The notes under the pieces: model-generated | The model's input: only the letters and a program-made list of their open reading frames with translations | Told to the model about the DNA's origin: nothing | Databases searched by the model: none | Position numbers and translations under genes: made by a program | Shown: piece after piece, positions 1,366 to 10,393 of the stretch | Position numbering within the stretch: the first letter of the stretch is position 1 | How the letters are laid out: every line of letters starts with the position of its first letter | Source: Pedomonas mirosovicensis | GTDB lineage: Bacteria; Pseudomonadota; Alphaproteobacteria; Sphingomonadales; Sphingomonadaceae | DNA: 64,000 nucleotides | Reading direction: 5' to 3' | Assembly: GCF_022569295.1 (NCBI RefSeq) | Contig: NZ_JAKFIA010000002.1 | Coordinates: 310,001-374,000, forward strand

Positions 1366-1716
1366 GGTGGTTCATGCTCCAAATTGCGTAGTCCGGCAGC
1401 ATGCTCGCATTCAGATGCCGAGAACGCAAGGGCAGCTCGCCGGAGCGTCGGCGCCGCCAGCAGGCCAAGCCCGAACAGCCGCATCTTACGCGGAATGCCG
1501 GAGCACAGGAGAGAGACAATACCCGCCAGGGCGGCACGATCCGAAAACCCTCGGACGGCCGCCCTTCGGCATGGGTGGTTCAGACGGCAGCAGCGGCGCG
1601 ATCACCGCCCACGGCGCATCAGGAACCAGAGGATTGCTCATGCAGACAAAAACACAGAGATGCCGTTTTGTTAGGTCGCCTTGGCTGGCCGAGCCAAATG
1701 CTATGAGCGAGGCAAC
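1366..1716. other. Intergenic stretch without a recognisable gene
   Basis: 351 bases between the DUF4287 gene and the end of the DoxX gene. Overlapping short frames exist on the plus strand but have no domain-like pattern or ribosome site. I see no clear terminator, repeat or RNA structure. It must hold the DUF4287 promoter near its left edge. Confidence 0.5.
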
Positions 1717-2316
1717 TCAAGCGGCCGCGATCATCCGGCGAACATAAGTGCTTCGCGTCAGCCAGTAATCGAGGCTCACATAGCGACCGCCGCCCGAGAA
1801 AAACAGAACGGCCAGCATGATCAGGTAAGTCGCCGTGAATTCGATGCCGTTGTTGAGGATCACGGGATCACCAAGTTCGGTGATATAATTGAATCGTCCC
1901 GGAAAATTCTGCCACAGCCATTCCATGAAGGCCTGCATCCGGAGAGTAGACTCGGCCGTTTTGCCGGCGATCGCAGCCCAGCCATGAGACCAGTGGACCG
2001 TTAGCCCTGCCACGGTCATGGTGACCATCAGCGGGAGCGACATGAGGCGCGTGAAAAGGCCTAGCGCCAGGCAGACGCATCCTGCGGTTTCGGCGGCGGT
2101 CGCAAGGCTTGCCATGAGAAGCGGGAAAGGCATCCCGAGTCCTCCCTGTGAGGCGGGTGCGGCGAACCACGAGACAAGCCCGGAGAAGCCCGTGATCTTC
2201 GCATGAGCGCCTTCGTACAGAGTTGGCAAAAGATAAAGGCGGATGGCGAGCGGAGGCAGGAAATCCAACGCTTGCGCCTTTTCCAGGGCTGCCGTGATGA
2301 GCGGTAATGGCCTCAT
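1717..2316 (-). CDS. DoxX-family membrane protein, last gene of a bufferin-like operon
   Basis: About 199 aa with four hydrophobic segments and the DoxX pattern (LAIRLYLLPTLYEGAHAK...; LATAAETAGCVCLALGLFTRL). The start was taken at ATG 2316, not 2337: a GGAGAA lies about 8 nt upstream and the ATG overlaps the preceding stop as ATGA. DoxX proteins commonly close DUF692/DUF2063 operons; a quinone- or redox-linked membrane role is proposed for the family. It is translated last in the cluster from 4124 to 1717. Confidence 0.88.
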   Translation of the reverse strand: MRPLPLITAALEKAQALDFLPPLAIRLYLLPTLYEGAHAKITGFSGLVSWFAAPASQGGLGMPFPLLMASLATAAETAGCVCLALGLFTRLMSLPLMVTMTVAGLTVHWSHGWAAIAGKTAESTLRMQAFMEWLWQNFPGRFNYITELGDPVILNNGIEFTATYLIMLAVLFFSGGGRYVSLDYWLTRSTYVRRMIAAA

Positions 2317-3008
2317 GATGTTTTCTCCATTTGGCAAGGAACCACGGTAATCATTTCATCGGCGAGTGCGCGGGCCAGCCAAGCTTGAGCCGAAAACGGA
2401 TCGGGGCCGTTCGCGAGTGGCATGGCCTGCCGAATGGCTTCGAGATTGCGACAGTCTTCGTGGGTGAGCCGGCGGATCTCCACGGAGTGATCGGCCTTCC
2501 GGTAAATGGCGCAAGGCAGTCCCGCGAAATAGGCAGCGGCAACATCGCCGAGGGTCGATCCGAGATCCTCAGGGTCGAACGGGAGCAGCACGAAACGCAG
2601 CGTCGGGTTCAGCGAGAGCGGTAGGCCCGTGCCACTTCGGCTGCGAGCGCGAGGGACCACGCAGGGGTCGATCTCTACAGAGAGCAGGCACCACTCGTAT
2701 TCCAGCACGGCAAGAAGCGAAGCGTCCAACTGCAGCCGGGCTTGCGCGAAGGCGACGAATTCGGTGGCAATGTGATGAAATTGTGGCCGCGCGGCCCGGT
2801 GGTGCACAACGAAGGCATCGACGGCATCCGCAAGGGGCCCGTTTCCGTATCGTGCGACAAAGGTGGGAAAGCTGTGCTGGAGCACGTCCGCGACGTTCTC
2901 GCGCAGAAGCGATCCGTACACGGGCTTGCGCCCTGAGCGCGCTCGTTTGCACAGGGCTGCCAGTTCCGCTTCCATCGCGGTGGGCGGAGCAGCGCATTCA
3001 GCAGGCAT
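2313..3008 (-). CDS. bufC: DUF2063 protein (BufC-like partner of a DUF692 oxidase)
   Basis: 231 aa from ATG 3008, which overlaps the end of the DUF692 gene by 11 bp. The N-terminal half is the DUF2063 putative DNA-binding fold (YGSLLRENVADVLQHSFPTF) and the C-terminal half an alpha/beta domain. In studied bufferin and related RiPP loci, this protein partners the DUF692 enzyme and presents the precursor peptide. Tight coupling both upstream and downstream (ATGA with DoxX) supports a stoichiometric complex. The symbol rests on synteny and family. Confidence 0.82.
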   Translation of the reverse strand: MPAECAAPPTAMEAELAALCKRARSGRKPVYGSLLRENVADVLQHSFPTFVARYGNGPLADAVDAFVVHHRAARPQFHHIATEFVAFAQARLQLDASLLAVLEYEWCLLSVEIDPCVVPRARSRSGTGLPLSLNPTLRFVLLPFDPEDLGSTLGDVAAAYFAGLPCAIYRKADHSVEIRRLTHEDCRNLEAIRQAMPLANGPDPFSAQAWLARALADEMITVVPCQMEKTS

Positions 3009-3837
3009 GAGAGGGCTTCCTTGCGAGCGGCGCGCTGACGGCGCGCAATTCCTTAAGGAGCGCGTCGAGGGCAGGCACGAAATTGTCGCGCTCCAGCAGC
3101 AGCGGACGGTCTCCATGGAGCCGCCGTACCTCGCGGCCAAGATCTGCAACTTCATCGGCTACAGGCGTGCCATGGGTGTCGAGCAGCGTACCGTCGGCCA
3201 GTTCTAGGTGCCCGGCTATGTGGTGATAGGCAATGGCCTCAGCCGGCAGCGCGCGGATAAATGCTTGCACATCCTGCCCATGATTGCGGGCGTTGACCCA
3301 GGCGTTGTTGATGTCGAGCAGCAGCCCGCAGCTTGAGTGCCGGACAAGCTCGGCGAGGAACTCGCCCTCGGGCATCTCGCCTCCGTACTCGTGGTAGCGG
3401 GAGATATTCTCCAGCACGAGCCGCCGCCCGGTCATGTCCTGCACCATCGCGATGCGGTCTGACAGGTAGGCGATGTTTTCCAGGCGACGCGGTATCGGCA
3501 GCAAATCATAGAGCTGGCCTTGTGCATCGCGCGAGGTGCTCAGGTGGTCGCTGTAGATCGCGATGGCGTAATCGTCGAGGAAGGCGCGCACTTCGCGCAG
3601 GAAGCGCACGTCGAGCGGCTCGGTGGCGCCGATCGACAGGCTGAGGCCATGTGCTACGAGCGGATACTTCCCGGCAATGCAGTCGAGCTGTTCACGCCGA
3701 CGGCCACCAATGCCCATCCAGTTTTCAGGCGCGAGTTCAAGGAAGTCGAGGCCGGGAACCGGCGCTCTTTCACAGAGCGCCGGGACCAGCTCGGGTCGCA
3801 GGCCAAGACCGCGCGCCGTGGGGCTCAGCTGCCGCAT
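2998..3837 (-). CDS. bufB: DUF692 multinuclear iron oxidase (MNIO), BufB-like peptide-modifying enzyme
   Basis: 279 aa from ATG 3837; the frame is open further upstream, but that part is antisense-like over the precursor gene. MNIO signature residues are all present: HGLSLSIG, YSDHLS, VLENISRY, LLDINNAWVN, AYHHIAGH, LLDTHGTPVADEV and LLERDNF. The fold is a TIM barrel binding two or three iron ions. Characterised members oxidise cysteines of a partner peptide to oxazolone/thioamide or thiooxazole groups. The likely substrate is the Cys protein encoded immediately upstream, whose stop overlaps this start by 13 bp. Confidence 0.9.
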   Translation of the reverse strand: MRQLSPTARGLGLRPELVPALCERAPVPGLDFLELAPENWMGIGGRRREQLDCIAGKYPLVAHGLSLSIGATEPLDVRFLREVRAFLDDYAIAIYSDHLSTSRDAQGQLYDLLPIPRRLENIAYLSDRIAMVQDMTGRRLVLENISRYHEYGGEMPEGEFLAELVRHSSCGLLLDINNAWVNARNHGQDVQAFIRALPAEAIAYHHIAGHLELADGTLLDTHGTPVADEVADLGREVRRLHGDRPLLLERDNFVPALDALLKELRAVSAPLARKPSHAC

Positions 3838-4124
3838 ACACCCTCCGCAAGCCGGTCCTTCCGGCTCTGCACGACGTTGTAGCCCTTGCCGCTCGGCCCG
3901 CACTTGCCATCGCGGGCGCGCACCAGCTTGCCGTTGGGATCGTGCGTGATCTTCGCCTGGCTGTAGATCTTCTCCGTACCGCACTTGCCGCTGGCGCACT
4001 TGCCGCCGCCCTTGGCGGGCTGGCTCGCGGCGGGGAGCGGAGCGGCGGCAGTGGCCGTGGCGGCGTAGGCCGGCAAGCCGAGCAGCGAAGCGGCGGCAAT
4101 GCCCAGGACGAGTTCATGCTTCAT
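3825..4124 (-). CDS. bufA: Small secreted cysteine protein, probable bufferin-type RiPP precursor
   Basis: 99 aa. A clear signal peptide (about residues 1-22, ending LPAYAATA) is followed by an Ala-rich linker and a Lys/Gly-rich core with four cysteines (C43, C48, C75, C97), two in GKC-type contexts. This is the architecture of DUF2282-like bufferin precursors, whose modified cysteines bind copper in the periplasm. AAGGAG precedes the ATG. It is first in the overlap-coupled set precursor, DUF692, DUF2063, DoxX. The cysteine spacing is not the textbook DUF2282 one, so the subfamily is uncertain. Confidence 0.82.
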   Translation of the reverse strand: MKHELVLGIAAASLLGLPAYAATATAAAPLPAASQPAKGGGKCASGKCGTEKIYSQAKITHDPNGKLVRARDGKCGPSGKGYNVVQSRKDRLAEGVCGS

Positions 4125-4148
4125 GTCGTTGTCTCCTTGGTGGGATGT

Positions 4149-5072
4149 TCAGAGAGGGAAGCAGGAGAGATCGCGGCCAGCGACGACGCGGCCCTTGAAG
4201 AAGCTGCGGATGATCTGGACGTTGTGATCCTTGTCGCGCAGCGCGCGACCCATGAAGTGATCGAGCACGAGGACCTTGGGATTCACGGCGGCGGCGATTT
4301 TGCCGACAACGGTGGGGGTTGCGTGCAAGAAGCGGGACTGCTCATCGGCGTTGTCATCAATGGCAGCGGGCATCATCAGGATGTCCGCTCCGCGTGCGAA
4401 GTCGATGAACTCCTTGCGACTGCCATTCTGGTCGGCAGAGAGCACGATCACGCCCTTGGGCGTCTCGATGCGAAAGGCGAGCGCGGGCACATCCCCATGG
4501 GGAATGCCCAGCGCATAAACGGTCACGCCATCCCCCTGCCAGACCTTGCTACGCATGGCCTTTGCCACCGCCACGTCCGTCGGATGGACGGCAAGATGCA
4601 GGCCGTCCGAGGCATTCGACAGTCCTGAAAGATAGGAGAAGGCACCGCGCCCTTCCGAAAATTCACGCGAGAAGAAGGCGGTCATGCTGGGGAAGTTGGC
4701 ATTGCCGGTAGGGCCTACGAGCGCGACCTTGTGGCTGCGGCTCAGGAAATAGCCGCCCTTCAGGATCGCGGGCAGATCAGCGACATGATCCGTGTGGAAA
4801 TGCGAGACGCCGATGAAATCGACATCCTCCAGCCGGGCGCCCGCCTCGCCGAAGCGAAGGTAAGTGCCGCCGCCGGCATCGATCAAAAGCCGCGCCTTGC
4901 CGTTGATCCAGATTACCGCACCCGAGGAAGCACGCGCGTCATCCGAAATCGGGCCGCCCGAGCCAAGCAGTTGAAGCGCAATGCCGCTGCCACAGACGGG
5001 CTGCGCCAGAGCCGGCGGGCTGGAGAGTACCGCTCCAGCCAGGAGAAGCAGGGATTTGGAAAGAGTTTTCAT
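4149..5072 (-). CDS. Periplasmic metallo-beta-lactamase-fold hydrolase
   Basis: 307 aa. A signal peptide (MKTLSKSLLLLAGAVLSSPP, cut after ALA) is followed by the metal motif SHFHTDHVADLP (HxHxDH). Downstream ligands are in SADQNG and DHFMGR, so a dinuclear zinc or iron site is likely. It resembles the RNase Z/arylsulfatase-like MBL group rather than true beta-lactamases; the substrate is unknown. It sits 24 bp before the Cys-protein gene and 11 bp after the YeiH gene, so it is probably co-transcribed with the bufferin-like set. Confidence 0.85.
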   Translation of the reverse strand: MKTLSKSLLLLAGAVLSSPPALAQPVCGSGIALQLLGSGGPISDDARASSGAVIWINGKARLLIDAGGGTYLRFGEAGARLEDVDFIGVSHFHTDHVADLPAILKGGYFLSRSHKVALVGPTGNANFPSMTAFFSREFSEGRGAFSYLSGLSNASDGLHLAVHPTDVAVAKAMRSKVWQGDGVTVYALGIPHGDVPALAFRIETPKGVIVLSADQNGSRKEFIDFARGADILMMPAAIDDNADEQSRFLHATPTVVGKIAAAVNPKVLVLDHFMGRALRDKDHNVQIIRSFFKGRVVAGRDLSCFPL

Positions 5073-5083
5073 GGGGAATTCCT

Positions 5084-6157
5084 TCAGGCGATGTGAAGAG
5101 CGAGGATAAGGGTCAGGCTGATCGCGCCCAGCACCAGCAGCGAGAGGACCACCGCAGCGGTGACGCGACCGCCAGCAGAGGCGACAGTGTGCACATCAAC
5201 GCCGAGCCCGAGGGCTGCCATCGACACCACGGTCAGAAAGGTTGCGATGGCCCCGGCCGGAGCGATCACCGCGTCGGGCACGAGGCCGAGCGAGCGCAGC
5301 GCTGCGAGGGCGAGGAACCCGAGGATGAACCACGGCACGAGATGATGGAGAGCCGGGCGTCCGGCGGCAGGCCGCTCACCGGCGGTCACGTGGGGCGCGG
5401 GTTCGTCCGTCTCCTCGCGCAGACGCGGTGCAACGAGCGAGAGAAGAAGGCAGACCGGGCCGAGCATCAGCACACGCACGAGCTTGACCAGCGTGCCCAT
5501 CTGCACAGCGGCCGCCCCGAGCGGCGCCGCAGCAGCAAGGACCTGCGGCACCGCGTAAACGGTAAGGCCGGTCAGAACGCCGTACTGCAACCCGTCGAGG
5601 TGCAACGCCAGGCCCAGCAGCGGCAGGCCAAGAACGACGATAACGCCCAGCACGGCAGTGAAGCCGATCGAAGCGGCGACGTCATCTGCGTCCGCACCGA
5701 TGACCGGGGCCACAGCCGCGATGGCCGAGTTGCCGCAGATCGAGTTCCCGCAGGCGACGAGCAGGGCCATGCGCGTCGGCAGATGCAGCATGCGCCCGAC
5801 GAGGAAGCTGGCGGCGATCGCCACGACCACCACGCCCGCAATGCCGAGCAGCATCTCTGGGCCCGCCGCCAGGATCGTGGCCGCACTCATGGAAGCGCCG
5901 AGCAGGACAACTGCGATCTCGAGCAATATCTTGGCGCTGAAGGCGATGCCGGGATGCCACCGCTCGTGGGGGGTCCAGAGGGAGCGCACCAGCGTGCCAA
6001 GCAGGATGGCGAGCACAAGCGCCTCGAGCCATGCCTGGCCGAACAACGCCTCCTCTGCCCACTGCACCGCATATGCCGCGCCAGTGACGGCGAGACACAG
6101 CATTAAGCCGGGTATCAGGCGAGTTGCCTTATTCCGATTGAGCAGGTTCTGGATCAT
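5084..6157 (-). CDS. YeiH/UPF0324-family putative sulfate or small-anion exporter
   Basis: 357 aa, about ten membrane segments. The family-defining stretch GNSICGNSAIAAVAPVIGA is present, as is ILLEIAVVLLGASMS. YeiH homologues are usually controlled by a LysR protein (YeiE/CbbR type) and are linked to sulfite, thiosulfate or taurine metabolism. Here a LysR gene lies 210 bp upstream on the same strand. A strong AGGAGA precedes the ATG. It appears to be the first gene of the unit that runs through to DoxX. Confidence 0.9.
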   Translation of the reverse strand: MIQNLLNRNKATRLIPGLMLCLAVTGAAYAVQWAEEALFGQAWLEALVLAILLGTLVRSLWTPHERWHPGIAFSAKILLEIAVVLLGASMSAATILAAGPEMLLGIAGVVVVAIAASFLVGRMLHLPTRMALLVACGNSICGNSAIAAVAPVIGADADDVAASIGFTAVLGVIVVLGLPLLGLALHLDGLQYGVLTGLTVYAVPQVLAAAAPLGAAAVQMGTLVKLVRVLMLGPVCLLLSLVAPRLREETDEPAPHVTAGERPAAGRPALHHLVPWFILGFLALAALRSLGLVPDAVIAPAGAIATFLTVVSMAALGLGVDVHTVASAGGRVTAAVVLSLLVLGAISLTLILALHIA

Positions 6158-6367
6158 GGTCGTCTCCTAAGGACAGGAGACAGGTGCACCCCAGCGACCG
6201 ATCAATCCAACGGTGTATTCTTATCGTTTCAATCTCTCAGGAAGATTGTTCGCCGGGCCGATAATCCCCGAAAACTCAAGATTTGGGCCAATGGCCGTCG
6301 ATCAGGCATCCCGGCGCAGCATCACGAATGCGGTGCATCCTGCGATCAATCCAATTGGCAGACGCGA

Positions 6368-7258
6368 TCAGATGACCCAATCCAACTGCGCGTGATGGCT
6401 GCGGATGACATCGAGCAGAGCGTCGGCCGCCTTGCTGCGATAGCGCTCCTTCTGGCGCAGGCCGAAGAAAGGGCGTTCGGGCAGAAGGAATGGCAGCGCG
6501 TGCAGCGTATGTGTGGCGAGCGCCGGGGCAACCACCAGTTTGGACAGGACGCCGTATCCGACGCCCGCACGTATGGCTGCGAGAACGGCCTCGTTGGATG
6601 GGAGCGTGAGAACGACGTTGAGCGTACGCGGATCAAGACCTCGATCGCGGATCGCCGATTCGAAGGCAGAGCGGGTGCCCGAACCCTCCTCACGCATGAC
6701 CCACGGCGCCCTGGCGAGCCAATCGTTGGTGATCGCTTCCGCCGGTTCCTGCCCGACCATTACCATCTGGTCGGCACCAATCGGCCATTGCGCGAGAGCC
6801 GGATCATCGATGGTGCCTTCGACGAAGCCTAGCTCCGCGTCACCAGCGTTGACCGCACGAGCAGACCCTTCGGTGTTTGCGATCGCGACCGAAAGTTCGA
6901 TCGCAGGATACCGACGTTTGAAGGCCGCGAGACGCTCTGGCAGCCAATAGCCGGCGATGGTCTGGCTGGCGACAAGCCGCAGCGTGCCGCGCTTGAGGCC
7001 GCCATATTCGGATAGCGCCAGTTCGGCACTGGCGGCGCGCGCAAGCACCGCGCGCGCCTCCTCCAGAAACATCCGCCCCGCGTCGGTAAGTTCAATGCCG
7101 CGTCCCACGCGGTTGAACAGCTTGACGTCGTGCCGGGCCTCCAGCGCGGCGATCGCGCCGCTGGCGGCCGACTGGGTGACATTGAGCGCCTCAGCCGCGC
7201 GGGTAACATGCTCGCGTTCGGCGACCGCAACGAAGATACGCAGCTGTTCAAGCGTCAT
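6368..7258 (-). CDS. LysR-family regulator, YeiE/CysB-like, upstream of yeiH
   Basis: 296 aa from ATG 7258 (MTLEQLRIFVAVAEREHVTR). An in-frame upstream ATG would add 12 poorly conserved residues inside the cytochrome gene. The HTH is residues 1-60 and the effector domain about 90-290 (LRLVASQTIAGYWLPERL; VMREEGSGTRSAF). The sequence is of the type that pairs with YeiH exporters. It overlaps the cytochrome b561 stop by 11 bp, so it is read with catalase and cytochrome and may pass their stress signal to the yeiH operon. Confidence 0.88.
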   Translation of the reverse strand: MTLEQLRIFVAVAEREHVTRAAEALNVTQSAASGAIAALEARHDVKLFNRVGRGIELTDAGRMFLEEARAVLARAASAELALSEYGGLKRGTLRLVASQTIAGYWLPERLAAFKRRYPAIELSVAIANTEGSARAVNAGDAELGFVEGTIDDPALAQWPIGADQMVMVGQEPAEAITNDWLARAPWVMREEGSGTRSAFESAIRDRGLDPRTLNVVLTLPSNEAVLAAIRAGVGYGVLSKLVVAPALATHTLHALPFLLPERPFFGLRQKERYRSKAADALLDVIRSHHAQLDWVI

Positions 7259-7877
7259 CCGCAGTGCTGTACCTTGCGTCCAGGTCCTTGGCAATCGGTG
7301 CCGGCGCGTGGCCGACCGCGTCGGGCGTGTCCGCGCGATAGCGATGGCCGGTGGTCATGCTGCGTAGGACGCCATCGCGTCGGATGAGGCCATGCATGAG
7401 CGCGGCACTCAGATGCGCCAGGATCAGCGCGAATAACAGCACCGCGATCGCCGTGTGCGCCTCTCGAAGCAGGGCATATAAGGCCAGGTCATGCGGCAGG
7501 ATCGGCGGCAGGGCCAAGGCCTTGGTCAACGTGATGCGATAGCCTCCCGCTGAAAGCATGGCCCACCCGATCAGCGGCATGGCAATCATGCCAGCATAGA
7601 GCAGGACATGGGATGCCTTGGCTGCCTGACGCTGCAGGGGCGACAAGTCATCCGGGAGCGGCGGCGCGCCGGTGATCAGGCGCAGTGGCAGTCGGATGAG
7701 CACCAGTATGAGGATCGCGATGCCCACGGGCCGGTGCAGTGCCAGCAGTGCGGGATAGAGCGGTCCGGTGGTCGAGACCATGCCGACCCCGATGAACAGC
7801 ATGGCGAGGACCATCGCTGCCATCAGCCAATGGACGAGGCGCAGCAGCGGGTGAAAGTCGTCAGGGTGGCGGGTCAT
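7248..7877 (-). CDS. Cytochrome b561-family membrane protein
   Basis: 209 aa with four predicted membrane helices. Histidines are placed for two b hemes: HPLLRLVHWLM, ALHRPVGI, KASHVLLYAGMI and REAHTAIAVLL...LAHLSAALMH. These proteins pass electrons from quinol to periplasmic partners. It overlaps the SrpA-like catalase gene by 4 bp (ATGA) and the LysR start downstream. Catalase/b561 pairs under an ECF sigma factor are a recurrent arrangement. Confidence 0.92.
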   Translation of the reverse strand: MTRHPDDFHPLLRLVHWLMAAMVLAMLFIGVGMVSTTGPLYPALLALHRPVGIAILILVLIRLPLRLITGAPPLPDDLSPLQRQAAKASHVLLYAGMIAMPLIGWAMLSAGGYRITLTKALALPPILPHDLALYALLREAHTAIAVLLFALILAHLSAALMHGLIRRDGVLRSMTTGHRYRADTPDAVGHAPAPIAKDLDARYSTADDA

Positions 7878-8947
7878 TGCTCGGCCTCCTTGGAGAAATC
7901 TGCTCCTGCCGCGCTCGGCCCCGCTCCTTCGCCGGCCCGGCGGGTGAAAGAGGAGGAGTAAGCTTTTGACCGTGCGGCAAGCATGGGATCATCCGACAGG
8001 CCAATGCCGGGCGGGAGGATTGTCGGGTCGAAGTTGAGATCACGGCAAGCGCCGGCTTCCTCCGGCTGCACGGCTGTAAGCGTCAAAATACCCGCATCAA
8101 TGGTCCGGTGCGGCCCCGTCCATGCGACCGTCGCGTTATCGGTGATGTCGCCGGGATTGGCGACCACAAGCTTGAGATGCCAGCGCGAGGAGCCTTTGGC
8201 GGTGCGGGCGATGATTTCGCGGAACAGGTAGTCGCGCGGAAGGGCATCGAGGTCCTTCTTGTCGAGCCCTGAAAGCGGCGCCTCGGGGTCGAACTGCCAG
8301 CGCACGAGCCTTGTCTGGCCCTTTGCGGTGAAGCGGAAGGCATTGATACTGTAGTAGGTGGCATTCGCGAAACTGTCCGGAAGAGTGGCCCTGGCCATGT
8401 AGTCCTGAAAGGCCTTCACCTCAGGGTGCGCGGCGAGGAATGGCTTCATCAATGCCGGATCGGGCTTGCCTGTCCTGGGATCCGGCTTTGTAGCCCGCTG
8501 GAGAGCGATGAACGAAGCGATATCGGCCACCGGAAAGATCGGAGTGTGGTCCATTGCCATGCGCCACTCCTGACCATCGGGCGTACGCAGTAACAAGGCC
8601 ATCGAGTGGAAGACGTTGCGCCCGTCAGTCGCCAGGGGATTACCGCCTGCGACCGAGAAGCGTCCGATCACAGGGTACTCGCCCGCGCGAAGTGCGGAGG
8701 CGCTCGATAACGCGCTCCCTGCCCCGTTCGCATGGAAGGAACCGCTGAAGCAAAGGCCCTTGGCGTGAGCCCGCCGATAGCCGGGATGCTTGCCGCCATT
8801 ATAGTCGAGCGAGGCTATGACGTCGCCGCCGTCGATGCGTCGTGCGCCGATCCAGCCCGCTGCCCACGCGAAAGCTCCGGCGAGCAGCAGCGCTATGGCA
8901 CCAATCAGCGCCGCAGGCGCCAGCGGCAAAGGTCTTGGAAGTGGCAT
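7874..8947 (-). CDS. SrpA-like catalase-family peroxidase, membrane-anchored
   Basis: 357 aa from ATG 8947. The frame is open to 8998, but the ECF-type promoter found at 8985-9010 would lie inside the longer version, so the inner start is preferred. An N-terminal hydrophobic segment (about residues 8-32) acts as an anchor or uncleaved signal. Catalase-fold marks are HAKGLCFSGSF (distal His), GRFSVAGGNP, and RSKAY near the C-terminus (proximal RxxxY heme ligand). It heads the catalase, b561, LysR unit and diverges from the ECF sigma gene. Confidence 0.9.
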   Translation of the reverse strand: MPLPRPLPLAPAALIGAIALLLAGAFAWAAGWIGARRIDGGDVIASLDYNGGKHPGYRRAHAKGLCFSGSFHANGAGSALSSASALRAGEYPVIGRFSVAGGNPLATDGRNVFHSMALLLRTPDGQEWRMAMDHTPIFPVADIASFIALQRATKPDPRTGKPDPALMKPFLAAHPEVKAFQDYMARATLPDSFANATYYSINAFRFTAKGQTRLVRWQFDPEAPLSGLDKKDLDALPRDYLFREIIARTAKGSSRWHLKLVVANPGDITDNATVAWTGPHRTIDAGILTLTAVQPEEAGACRDLNFDPTILPPGIGLSDDPMLAARSKAYSSSFTRRAGEGAGPSAAGADFSKEAEQ

Positions 8948-8984
8948 CGATGAGGTCCGTTCGTATTGGCAGGATGTAGCGAGA

Positions 8985-9010
8985 GACGATGGCGGCACGC
9001 GCGATATTCC
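8985..9010 (-). promoter_or_regulatory. ECF-type promoter for the catalase unit (GGAAT-N17-CGTC)
   Basis: On the minus strand GGAAT (9010-9006) is followed after exactly 17 nt by CGTC (8988-8985), 38 nt before the catalase ATG at 8947. The same element with the same spacing faces the sigma gene at 9039-9064. GGAA(T)/CGTC is a classic ECF -35/-10 pair. Seen in sequence; use by this sigma factor is inferred. Confidence 0.72.
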
Positions 9011-9038
9011 ATCATGATCAAAAATATTTTCGCTTGCT

Positions 9039-9064
9039 GGAATAGAATGTCTCCCCTCATCGTC
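9039..9064 (+). promoter_or_regulatory. ECF-type autoregulatory promoter of the sigma factor gene
   Basis: GGAAT at 9039-9043 and CGTC at 9061-9064, separated by 17 nt, ending 21 nt before the sigma-factor ATG at 9086. It is the same pair as the divergent catalase promoter, which points to autoregulation by the encoded ECF factor. Confidence 0.72.
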
Positions 9065-9085
9065 CAGCGCGGTATGATGCGGTCC

Positions 9086-9619
9086 ATGAACCCGAACTCA
9101 GAGCTGATCGCGACGATCCAGCCGCTCATTCCTGCGCTTCGGCGCTATGCTCGCGGTCTGATGCGTGATCGCTCTGAGGCCGACGATCTTGTCCAGGACG
9201 TTCTTGAACGCGTGATTTCCCGTTGGCACCAGCGCCGTCCGACTGGCAGCGCGCGGGCCTGGACGTTCAGAATTCTGCACAACCTCGCGATGGACCGCAT
9301 GCGCCAGCGTGCAACGCGCGCCGCGCCCGGACCGATGGACTCTGTCCCGGAGGACAGGCTCGCTTCTCCACCCACGCAGGAGGACAAGATAAGATATGAT
9401 GACGTCCTCTCGTTGATCGCTGCTCTGTCCGAGGAACAACGCGGTGTTCTGCTGCTTATCGCGGTGGAGGACCTGAGCTATGCCGAGGCCGCGGAGGTTC
9501 TGGACATCCCGGTGGGAACTGTCATGTCGCGCCTCTCCCGAGCGCGAGAGCGGCTGCACAGGATGAGCGCAGGGGAAGACACAGATCAAAAGAGCCCGAT
9601 GTTGAGGATCGTGAAATGA
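9086..9619 (+). CDS. ECF (group IV) RNA polymerase sigma factor
   Basis: 177 aa from ATG 9086. Region 2 has RYARGLMRDRSEADDLVQDV and the -10 recognition helix (WTFRILHNLAMDRMRQRA). Region 4 has LSEEQRGVLLLIAVEDLSYAEAAEVLDIPVGTVMSRLSRARERL. Upstream in-frame ATGs would put the ECF promoter inside the gene and were not used. The stop overlaps the anti-sigma ATG (ATGA). It likely drives itself and the catalase unit. Confidence 0.93.
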   Translation: MNPNSELIATIQPLIPALRRYARGLMRDRSEADDLVQDVLERVISRWHQRRPTGSARAWTFRILHNLAMDRMRQRATRAAPGPMDSVPEDRLASPPTQEDKIRYDDVLSLIAALSEEQRGVLLLIAVEDLSYAEAAEVLDIPVGTVMSRLSRARERLHRMSAGEDTDQKSPMLRIVK

Positions 9620-10393
9620 ACGGCGGACCGGTCAGCGAAGCAGATCTGCAAGCCTATGTGGATGGTCGCCTCACGCCCGAACGCGAACGTGAAGTGGCGG
9701 AGTGGCTCGCGGAAAGACCGAAGCAGGCTGAACGTATCACAGCCTACCGCGCGCAATCGCTGGCACTGCGCTCAGCACTTGCGTCCGTGGCGGACGAGCC
9801 GCTGCCTGCGTCACTGGACCTTCGCCTGAGGCATAGCCCTGGCGCGACGCCCTTCCCGGCCCGCCAAGCAGGGGATCGCAGCCGCCGCGGCACTGCTGCT
9901 CGTCCTCGGCGGAGCGGGAGGGTGGCTCCTTCGCGATATAACGTCTCCCCCTACCACCGGAACCGCGATGCTGGCGAGGGAGGCGACAGCGAATTACATG
10001 GTATATGCCAGCGACAGTACGCGCCCGGTTGAACTTGGCGCCGACCATCGCCGGGCGCTCGACGACTGGTTCTCCAACAGACTGTCCCGACCGATCAGTT
10101 CGCCGGACCTTGAACCCGTGGGCCTCAAGCTGATCGGTGGACGATTGGTCGCGACAGAGCATGGCCCTGCGGGACTTTATCTCTATGCCGATGGGCACGG
10201 CAGGCGCGTGGCGCTCTACGTCAGGCCGATGAAGATAGATAAAAATGACAGGATGGTTCGCCGGCAAGGCGAAGGCGTTCATGGGTGGACCTGGGCCGAT
10301 AATGGTCTGGGCTTCGGCATCTTCGGCCTGGAGCAGGCTGAAACGCTTCACCGTGCGGCCGACATGACGCGCAGGCATTATTTGGCTGTTTAA
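9616..10393 (+). pseudogene. Membrane anti-sigma factor, split by a one-base frameshift
   Basis: The first part (9616 to about 9835) reads MNGGPVSEADLQAYVDGRL, the zinc-less anti-sigma N-terminus seen with ECF factors. The second part, from about 9839 in the +1 frame, has a membrane helix (GIAAAAALLLVLGGAGGWLL) and a periplasmic domain ending at 10393. Dropping one C from the CCC at 9836-9838 joins them into about 258 aa with no gap in family layout. It is either a sequencing error or a recent inactivation, which would leave the sigma factor unrestrained. It overlaps the sigma stop by 4 bp. Confidence 0.8.

Follow-up and report, generated by a model that had tools for sequence, protein, structure and literature searches.

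Why should the genes of a bufferin-like ribosomally synthesized and post-translationally modified peptide (RiPP) stand directly behind those of a secreted metallo-β-lactamase (MBL)-fold protein and an anion exporter? This question is raised by a locus of the alphaproteobacterium Pedomonas mirosovicensis, located in the window analysed here, a stretch of 64,000 nucleotides (positions 310,001 to 374,000 of contig NZ_JAKFIA010000002.1; coordinates below are those of the window). Six minus-strand genes run from 6157 to 1717 and encode a YeiH-type exporter, the secreted MBL-fold protein, a precursor peptide with four cysteines, a multinuclear non-heme iron-dependent oxidative enzyme (MNIO, DUF692), its DUF2063 partner and a DoxX protein. 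Comparison of related loci reveals that the exporter is a lineage-specific variant and that another partner, cytochrome bd, is linked to the same genes more strongly than YeiH. A literature search found no report joining DUF692 with cydA or ubiquinol oxidase nor, among the matches listed, with cytochrome bd, and this link is the part of the finding that deserves follow-up.

All six genes start with ATG, as confirmed by reading the sequence. The exporter gene (5084–6157, 357 residues) is separated by 11 bp from the MBL gene (4149–5072, 307 residues), which is followed after 24 bp by the precursor gene (3825–4124, 99 residues). The remaining genes overlap: the precursor gene shares 13 bp with the MNIO gene (2998–3837, ATG at 3837, 279 residues), the latter 11 bp with the gene for the DUF2063/RiPP recognition element partner (2313–3008, ATG at 3008), and this one 4 bp with the DoxX gene (1717–2316, ATG at 2316). 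Both the gene-by-gene overlap from precursor to DoxX and the two upstream genes on the same strand, with their gaps of 24 and 11 bp, had been described in the initial annotation and are borne out here. Pfam models exceed their cut-offs across the operon, namely, PF03601 for the exporter (2.1e-65), PF12706 for the MBL (1e-10), PF05114 for the putative peptide-modifying MNIO (5.2e-86), PF09836 for its partner (3.5e-8) and PF07681 for DoxX (3.2e-14). The exporter, probably an inner-membrane sulfite/sulfate exporter, passes PF03601 and scores 119.3 bits against a TIGR00698 cut-off of 232.6, so that its earlier designation as YeiH-type holds in the wide sense only. In the stretch 1500–7300, a scan for sigma-70 promoters found none against 0.9 expected from shuffled sequences, and a scan for terminators found two against 4.4 expected, no more than in the shuffles.

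Related loci were collected by scanning genome contigs with a profile built from four aligned MBL proteins, and the best 80 of 180 relatives were kept. In the top 53 loci (L043–L095), a precursor and an MNIO gene directly follow the MBL gene, and tblastn finds the order MBL–precursor–MNIO in 53/53. The remaining 27 loci yielded no precursor match and a single MNIO (L101, by eye with another precursor type). YeiH stands directly before the MBL in nine of the 53 loci, with gaps of 19–47 bp at the nearest ATG, and all nine belong to a sphingomonad-type clade of 15 loci, which includes Nitrospirillum, Acetobacter and a metagenome-assembled genome (MAG) record. Given this junction in nine other loci and the constant order in the 53, the YeiH–MBL–precursor–MNIO arrangement exceeds chance. 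The neighbourhood comparison that the initial annotation had called for, DUF692 genes beside YeiH and MBL, thus finds co-occurrence in other genomes; a literature search found no report pairing YeiH with DUF692. Across the 119 genomes of the window's family, MNIO matches number 47, spread over 38 genomes, and PF03601 matches 53, spread over 47; when their coordinates were compared by eye no pair within 10 kb was seen except that of the window, the next closest on one contig being 28 kb apart. A separate observation concerns L048 and L049, where nearly identical MBL genes occur in Sphingomonas and in an Acetobacter sicerae contig with ParA-like and recombinase genes (by eye), suggesting either recent transfer or contamination.

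Clustering of the neighbouring proteins raised CydA and CydB, the assignment being checked with Pfam on examples. Cytochrome bd is a copper-free oxidase that occurs in types differing in the Q-loop, and a sulfide-resistant form is reportedly on record (PMC4815019). By tblastn of 634 kb of flank in total, cyd genes or their remnants flank 31/53 loci, of which 5 are among the 15 sphingomonad-type loci and 26 among the 38 elsewhere; cyd or YeiH is found at 39/53. The cyd genes stand beside the cassette on either side (L057–L059, L067, L068, L070, L073, L075–L078, L081–L084, L086, L087, L089–L093, L095 and others), and tblastn reported no cyd match among the 27 loci without precursor. An internal control is provided by the whole genomes of 49 loci (the 53 minus L043, L063, L088 and L056). 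In these genomes cydA lies within 8 kb of 25/49 focal MNIO genes versus 0/35 other MNIO genes, and PF03601 genes within the same distance of 7/49 versus 0/35. A further cydA match is carried by 24 of the 25 genomes with a cydA-linked MNIO. The window itself differs from these loci: CioAB/CydAB operons, a recurrent neighbour of the cassette in other genera, are not found near it, and the only cydA match of its genome lies about 534 kb away on the same contig.

The same package occurs on plasmids. Sixteen plasmid records with the precursor were found, 13 of them from Escherichia, and cyd genes or a remnant are present in 5/5 that were opened. In the plasmids of Pectobacterium and two Escherichia albertii, cydABX lies downstream of the cassette, and in that of Klebsiella cydAB lies upstream with a transposase between (together loci L127, L128, L129 and L130), while the Sphingomonas plasmid LK11 (L123) has a cydA remnant upstream of the MBL gene. 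A blastn search of the Pectobacterium cluster against E. coli genomes gave no match.

In close relatives, cyd and YeiH occupy the same slot. This was examined in an MBL tree built from the window, the 53 loci and four of the remaining 27. The cyd label there includes the remnant or edge cases L046, L047, L049, L065, L066 and L080, and L052, where both partners are present, counts as YeiH. The tree requires three changes for upstream cyd, six for downstream cyd and three for YeiH, of which the starred branches force two, five and two, respectively; the joins have therefore been gained or lost repeatedly. The closest grouping of the window in this tree is with one YeiH locus and four upstream-cyd loci of the sphingomonad type (94/82, just under the starred level).

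The upstream regions were searched for regulatory sites. A scan of 41 MBL and 11 cydA regions with the FNR consensus, some MBL starts being estimated from a residue offset, found FNR-like boxes before the MBL in 14/52 regions versus 0.08 expected from single-base shuffles, 13 of them in Vibrionaceae. In the Vibrio loci L061, L065–L069 and L078, a GTTCA...GAAC-like inverted repeat was seen by eye further upstream of the MBL than the FNR-like box, the box being absent from L069; a strict search for this repeat with an 8-base spacer reported none. A pattern search of 17 regions for a CueR-like site upstream of the MBL gave no match.

Several observations weigh against the reading favoured below, in which the cassette is coupled to one of these partners. 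The presence of the MBL at every locus follows by construction, because the loci were found through it. Neither cyd nor YeiH was found in the flanks examined at 14/53 loci, including L044 and L055 of the sphingomonad-type clade, and 18/49 focal MNIO genes have neither partner within 8 kb in the comparison by hidden Markov models, in which remnants are not counted. The Fisher value for the cydA control, 6e-8, is not a probability for independent samples, because the loci are related. At L046, L047, L065 and L066 there are only fragments of cydA, at L049 a short cydA match precedes cydB, and L080 is truncated where its contig stops; the remnants imply that the cyd link also gets lost. YeiH was found at 0/38 loci outside the sphingomonad-type clade in the flanks examined, and for this reason L052 is the only locus where the sulfite exporter is seen alongside cytochrome bd. 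A plasmid of Sphingomonas insulae carries b561, catalase, exporter and LysR genes together with sulfite oxidase and, in the region viewed, no MNIO; the YeiH/catalase/b561/LysR module therefore has a life of its own. Finally, in a cydAB mutant of Bordetella pertussis, inactivation of the bufferin did not phenocopy the loss of the copper importer CrtA (PMC12914433). The linkage of the core genes to MBL and YeiH suggested earlier is real for both, with YeiH confined to one lineage and not part of a general design; furthermore, the occurrence of the MBL with bufferin-like genes is not new, having already been published (PMC12452194).

What kind of peptide is at the centre of these loci? The 99-residue precursor has, by inspection, a Sec-type signal and cysteines at positions 43, 48, 75 and 97 in the motifs GKCASGKCGTEK ... 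RARDGKCG ... EGVCG. No Pfam or NCBIfam match was obtained at E 0.001, and the structure model is unfolded (pLDDT 52.8). In an alignment of 29 rows with the consensus GGKCA(S/A)GKCGTEK ... RARDGKCG ... GVCG, C43, C48 and C75 are present in 29/29 and C97 in 27; the remaining two rows are truncated in the alignment. These positions, their GKC-type contexts and the departure from DUF2282 agree with what had first been noted, and the bufferin-like RiPP operon proposed at that time, with its non-DUF2282 precursor, is upheld. The core is not that of a classic bufferin. It agrees with the CxxxxC class described by Antoine et al. in 2025 (PMC12452194), an assignment based on the motif and the neighbouring gene. 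A small precursor with CxxxxC (C43-ASGK-C48) and Sec-type signal lies directly before the MNIO gene, and DUF2063, DoxX and a Lactamase_B_2 (PF12706) gene complete the cluster as in that class, which was reported to comprise 76 proteins, every one of them from 'Pseudomonadati', with Lactamase_B_2 present in 54% of the clusters (PMC12452194). The difference lies in the partners, since a word search of the main text of that paper returned zero occurrences each of YeiH, cytochrome and ubiquinol.

Other precursor classes agree less well. Membership of Buf1 was rejected in the absence of a DUF2282 match at E 0.001, and that of Buf2 because there are four cysteines, in another spacing, instead of 6 or 12 conserved ones; the core gene order is nevertheless common to both types of bufferins and the window. 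The Buf_EGKCG/oxazolin group (HvfABC; gonophorin, fontiphorin; captophorins) shares with the window the Lys-Cys-Gly contexts, a DoxX of the HvfX family (NF050144, 205.9 bits against a cut-off of 80) and an MNIO scoring best with HvfB. However, the window precursor has SGKCG, DGKCG and EGVCG and no exact EGKCG or repeat of it, by which this group was also rejected, and the MNIO (304.5 of 360 bits for HvfB) and its HvfC-like partner of PME type 1 (74.4 of 142 bits for HvfC; weak match to 3dee, E 0.0072) remain below the cut-offs.

The MNIO itself resembles 3bww (5.9e-47). Rows of this family carry Asn, His or Gln directly after the proposed catalytic Asp, where 3bww has Phe and three other aligned MNIO rows have Asp, a further difference from the oxazolin enzymes. 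As this position is among those governing substrate choice in MNIOs (PMC13097082), the window-type enzyme looks like a specificity class of its own. The genome has a second MNIO locus (L042, G000:C2:492803-493579), in which a sigma factor, NrsF, a precursor with six cysteines (class judged by eye), an MNIO and a DUF2063-like gene resemble an ordinary Buf2 operon. Contig 2 (905,578 bases) may be a second replicon.

The MBL-fold protein, with a signal peptide by inspection, was modelled with high confidence (pLDDT 91.2). The closest folds are RNase Z, PNGM-1 and the arylsulfatase 8gyg, tied at Z about 31, and sequence profiles place 8gyg first. Residues H91, H93, D95, H96, H192, H250 and H272 are present in 34/34 aligned rows and D214 in 33. 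With ligand roles assigned as in PNGM-1, the metal-binding set consists of H91, H93, D95, H96, H192, D214 and H272, with H250 as a further histidine. The protein therefore combines the fold of RNase Z and MBL arylsulfatases, whose sharing does not in itself show the activity, with their two-metal ligand set; because this set is intact, the MBL is expected to be active as a two-metal hydrolase. The most likely substrate is the peptide of the operon or a small periplasmic sulfur compound. A function as RNase Z was rejected (NCBIfam score 80.4 bits versus a cut-off of 292.95), as were the other NCBIfam functions compared, all of which scored far below their cut-offs. By eye, members of the family also adjoin MNIO clusters with Buf1/Buf2-like precursors at L035, L033 and L101, and the family is therefore not limited to CxxxxC precursors.

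How could these genes work together? The reading that we favour, at about an even chance, is that the six genes constitute one operon for a CxxxxC-class periplasmic thiooxazole metallophore coupled to the upkeep of quinol oxidation under copper or reactive-sulfur stress; beyond the gene order, every step of it is one that we infer. By analogy with characterised relatives, MNIO and its DUF2063 partner would convert the precursor cysteines in GKC contexts to 5-thiooxazoles in the cytoplasm, the Sec-exported peptide would bind periplasmic Cu(I) or other thiol-loving metal ions, and DoxX would be its membrane partner. A lineage-specific partner is joined to this cassette: many relatives have cytochrome bd, and most of the sphingomonad-type clade has a YeiE-like/YeiH-like module. 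The joint purpose would be to sustain periplasmic function and quinol oxidation where copper, sulfide or sulfite would poison heme-copper oxidases. In favour of this reading, besides gene order and recurrent partners, are the FNR-like boxes, the conserved block before the exporter, and the copper binding by related products and the roles of cytochrome bd and of YeiE and YeiH in other bacteria that are cited below.

The rival that survives best, which we regard as possible though doubtful, invokes copper only. According to it, the cassette is a plain copper buffer whose peptide is tailored or processed by the MBL, the copper-free cytochrome bd works when the peptide ties up copper, and YeiH comes from a sphingomonad stress island with no functional tie. 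In line with this reading, the MBL comes before the precursor at every one of the 53 top loci, and YeiH is limited to one clade. Characterised MNIO-PME1 clusters form 5-thiooxazoles, with products that generally bind copper (PMC13097082), and cydAB, that is, cytochrome bd, is essential to B. pertussis at low copper (PMC12914433). By contrast, the MBL family also occurs without MNIO in the flanks examined, next to sulfite genes, the YeiH–MBL junction has been kept in nine loci with gaps of 19–47 bp, and the block 5′ of YeiH is conserved.

That block (6197–6234, minus strand) precedes the exporter start and is a candidate LysR/YeiE-type site and promoter region, conserved in an 11-row alignment of the window, the nine related loci and L126, a LysR–YeiH pair without peptide genes in the region viewed. 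Its presence before the L126 pair suggests that the peptide genes of the window came under a sulfite-type regulator. The same-strand block continues upstream with a YeiE-like LysR regulator (6368–7258; PF00126, PF03466; 179.3 bits against a cut-off of 480 for the YeiE model NF040889), a cytochrome b561 (7248–7877; PF01292, 8.6e-29) and a catalase-family protein with an N-terminal hydrophobic stretch (7874–8998, start uncertain; PF00199, 8.5e-25), all on the minus strand. It is followed by a divergent extracytoplasmic function (ECF) sigma factor on the plus strand (9008–9619, start uncertain; Sigma70_r2, Sigma70_r4_2), a related pair being found in L044, L051 and L052, and by a putative anti-sigma gene (9616–10032), whose protein has no Pfam match. 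The catalase-family and b561 genes also precede the block in 5/15 sphingomonad-type loci (L044, L051, L052, L053 and L064). Six stretches 5′ of the catalase gene were aligned for an ECF promoter, and nothing convincing was seen. In the favoured reading, a LysR-controlled promoter before the exporter would make the window peptide genes sulfite-responsive.

A less probable rival puts the detoxification of reactive sulfur first: the peptide thiols, DoxX and MBL would act on periplasmic sulfite, sulfide or persulfide, YeiH would deliver sulfite, cytochrome bd or the b561/catalase-family pair would take the electrons, and copper would be secondary. We know of no activity recorded for this MBL, DoxX or peptide, and count this against it. 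However, the MBL family has a second, separate tie to sulfite genes. In 5/27 loci without precursor (L097, L100, L104, L112 and L113), the MBL relative lies beside rhodanese, a molybdenum sulfite oxidase and a PF03601 exporter (Pfam on examples), with ATP sulfurylase in addition at L097, L100 and L104; these exporters are 28–30% identical to that of the window, from which the separateness of the tie follows. Rhodanese and sulfite oxidase are found at L114, the oxidase at L120, rhodanese at L103 and a weak oxidase match at L106. The five loci are from gammaproteobacterial MAGs, three labelled Woeseiaceae, and hydrogenase-like genes were seen by eye in the four viewed. Among loci with precursor, L046, L047, L050 and L060 have a gene of the sulfite-oxidase type within 8 kb (PF00174 either together with Mo-co_dimer or, at a contig end, by itself), and plasmid LK11 has a match; of the 31 cyd-type loci, though, only L046 and L047 have one in the flanks examined. 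YeiE and YeiH confer sulfite resistance on Salmonella (PMC12880088), and cytochrome bd guards Chromobacterium violaceum against sulfide, cyanide, NO, iron and zinc (PMC11837568). The Salmonella pair (PMC12880088) resembles the window in that a LysR regulator adjoins a PF03601 exporter, whereas in the window both proteins fall below the YeiE and TIGR00698 cut-offs, the two genes are on the same strand and a RiPP operon follows. The hypothetical sulfur or thiol function put forward in the initial annotation gains, for its link to sulfur, separate support from the Salmonella precedent and from the MBL relatives next to sulfite genes; the commoner partner, cytochrome bd, had been missed.

Similarly improbable is mere hitch-hiking, in which stress-gene clusters on plasmids and islands share transfer and not function and the adjacency of cyd and YeiH reflects co-selection only: it would agree with the occurrence on plasmids and across families, including the Nitrospirillum and Acetobacter records, and with partners that differ between lineages, but none of the 35 other MNIO genes in the same genomes has either partner within 20 kb, and the partners join on different sides and, by eye and best-matching query, with different cyd types per lineage.

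A thiosulfate:quinone role is known for DoxX. A bolder version of the favoured reading, which we think more improbable still than these last two rivals, sees the cassette as a mobile module for the protection of respiration. It would oxidise, via DoxX and into the quinone pool, either the thiooxazole peptide or some sulfur compound that the peptide and the MBL process, and a dedicated quinol sink would be encoded alongside. That sink would be cytochrome bd in most lineages, and the b561/catalase-family pair together with sulfite export in sphingomonads. If this were true, the peptide would do more than soak up metal: it would take an active part in a sulfur/copper redox pathway of the periplasm.

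MNIO clusters number in the thousands, but ideas of their place in physiology are for the most part guesses based on copper binding. For one precursor class, the loci compared here show a repeated tie, on either flank, to a copper-free respiratory oxidase, and within a single lineage a tie to genes similar to a sulfite-resistance pair. These two ties suggest a possible gene set for maintaining respiration under copper and sulfur stress. The purpose of the peptide thereby becomes testable: is respiration protected from copper, from sulfide or from sulfite? The cassette package is also found on enterobacterial plasmids.

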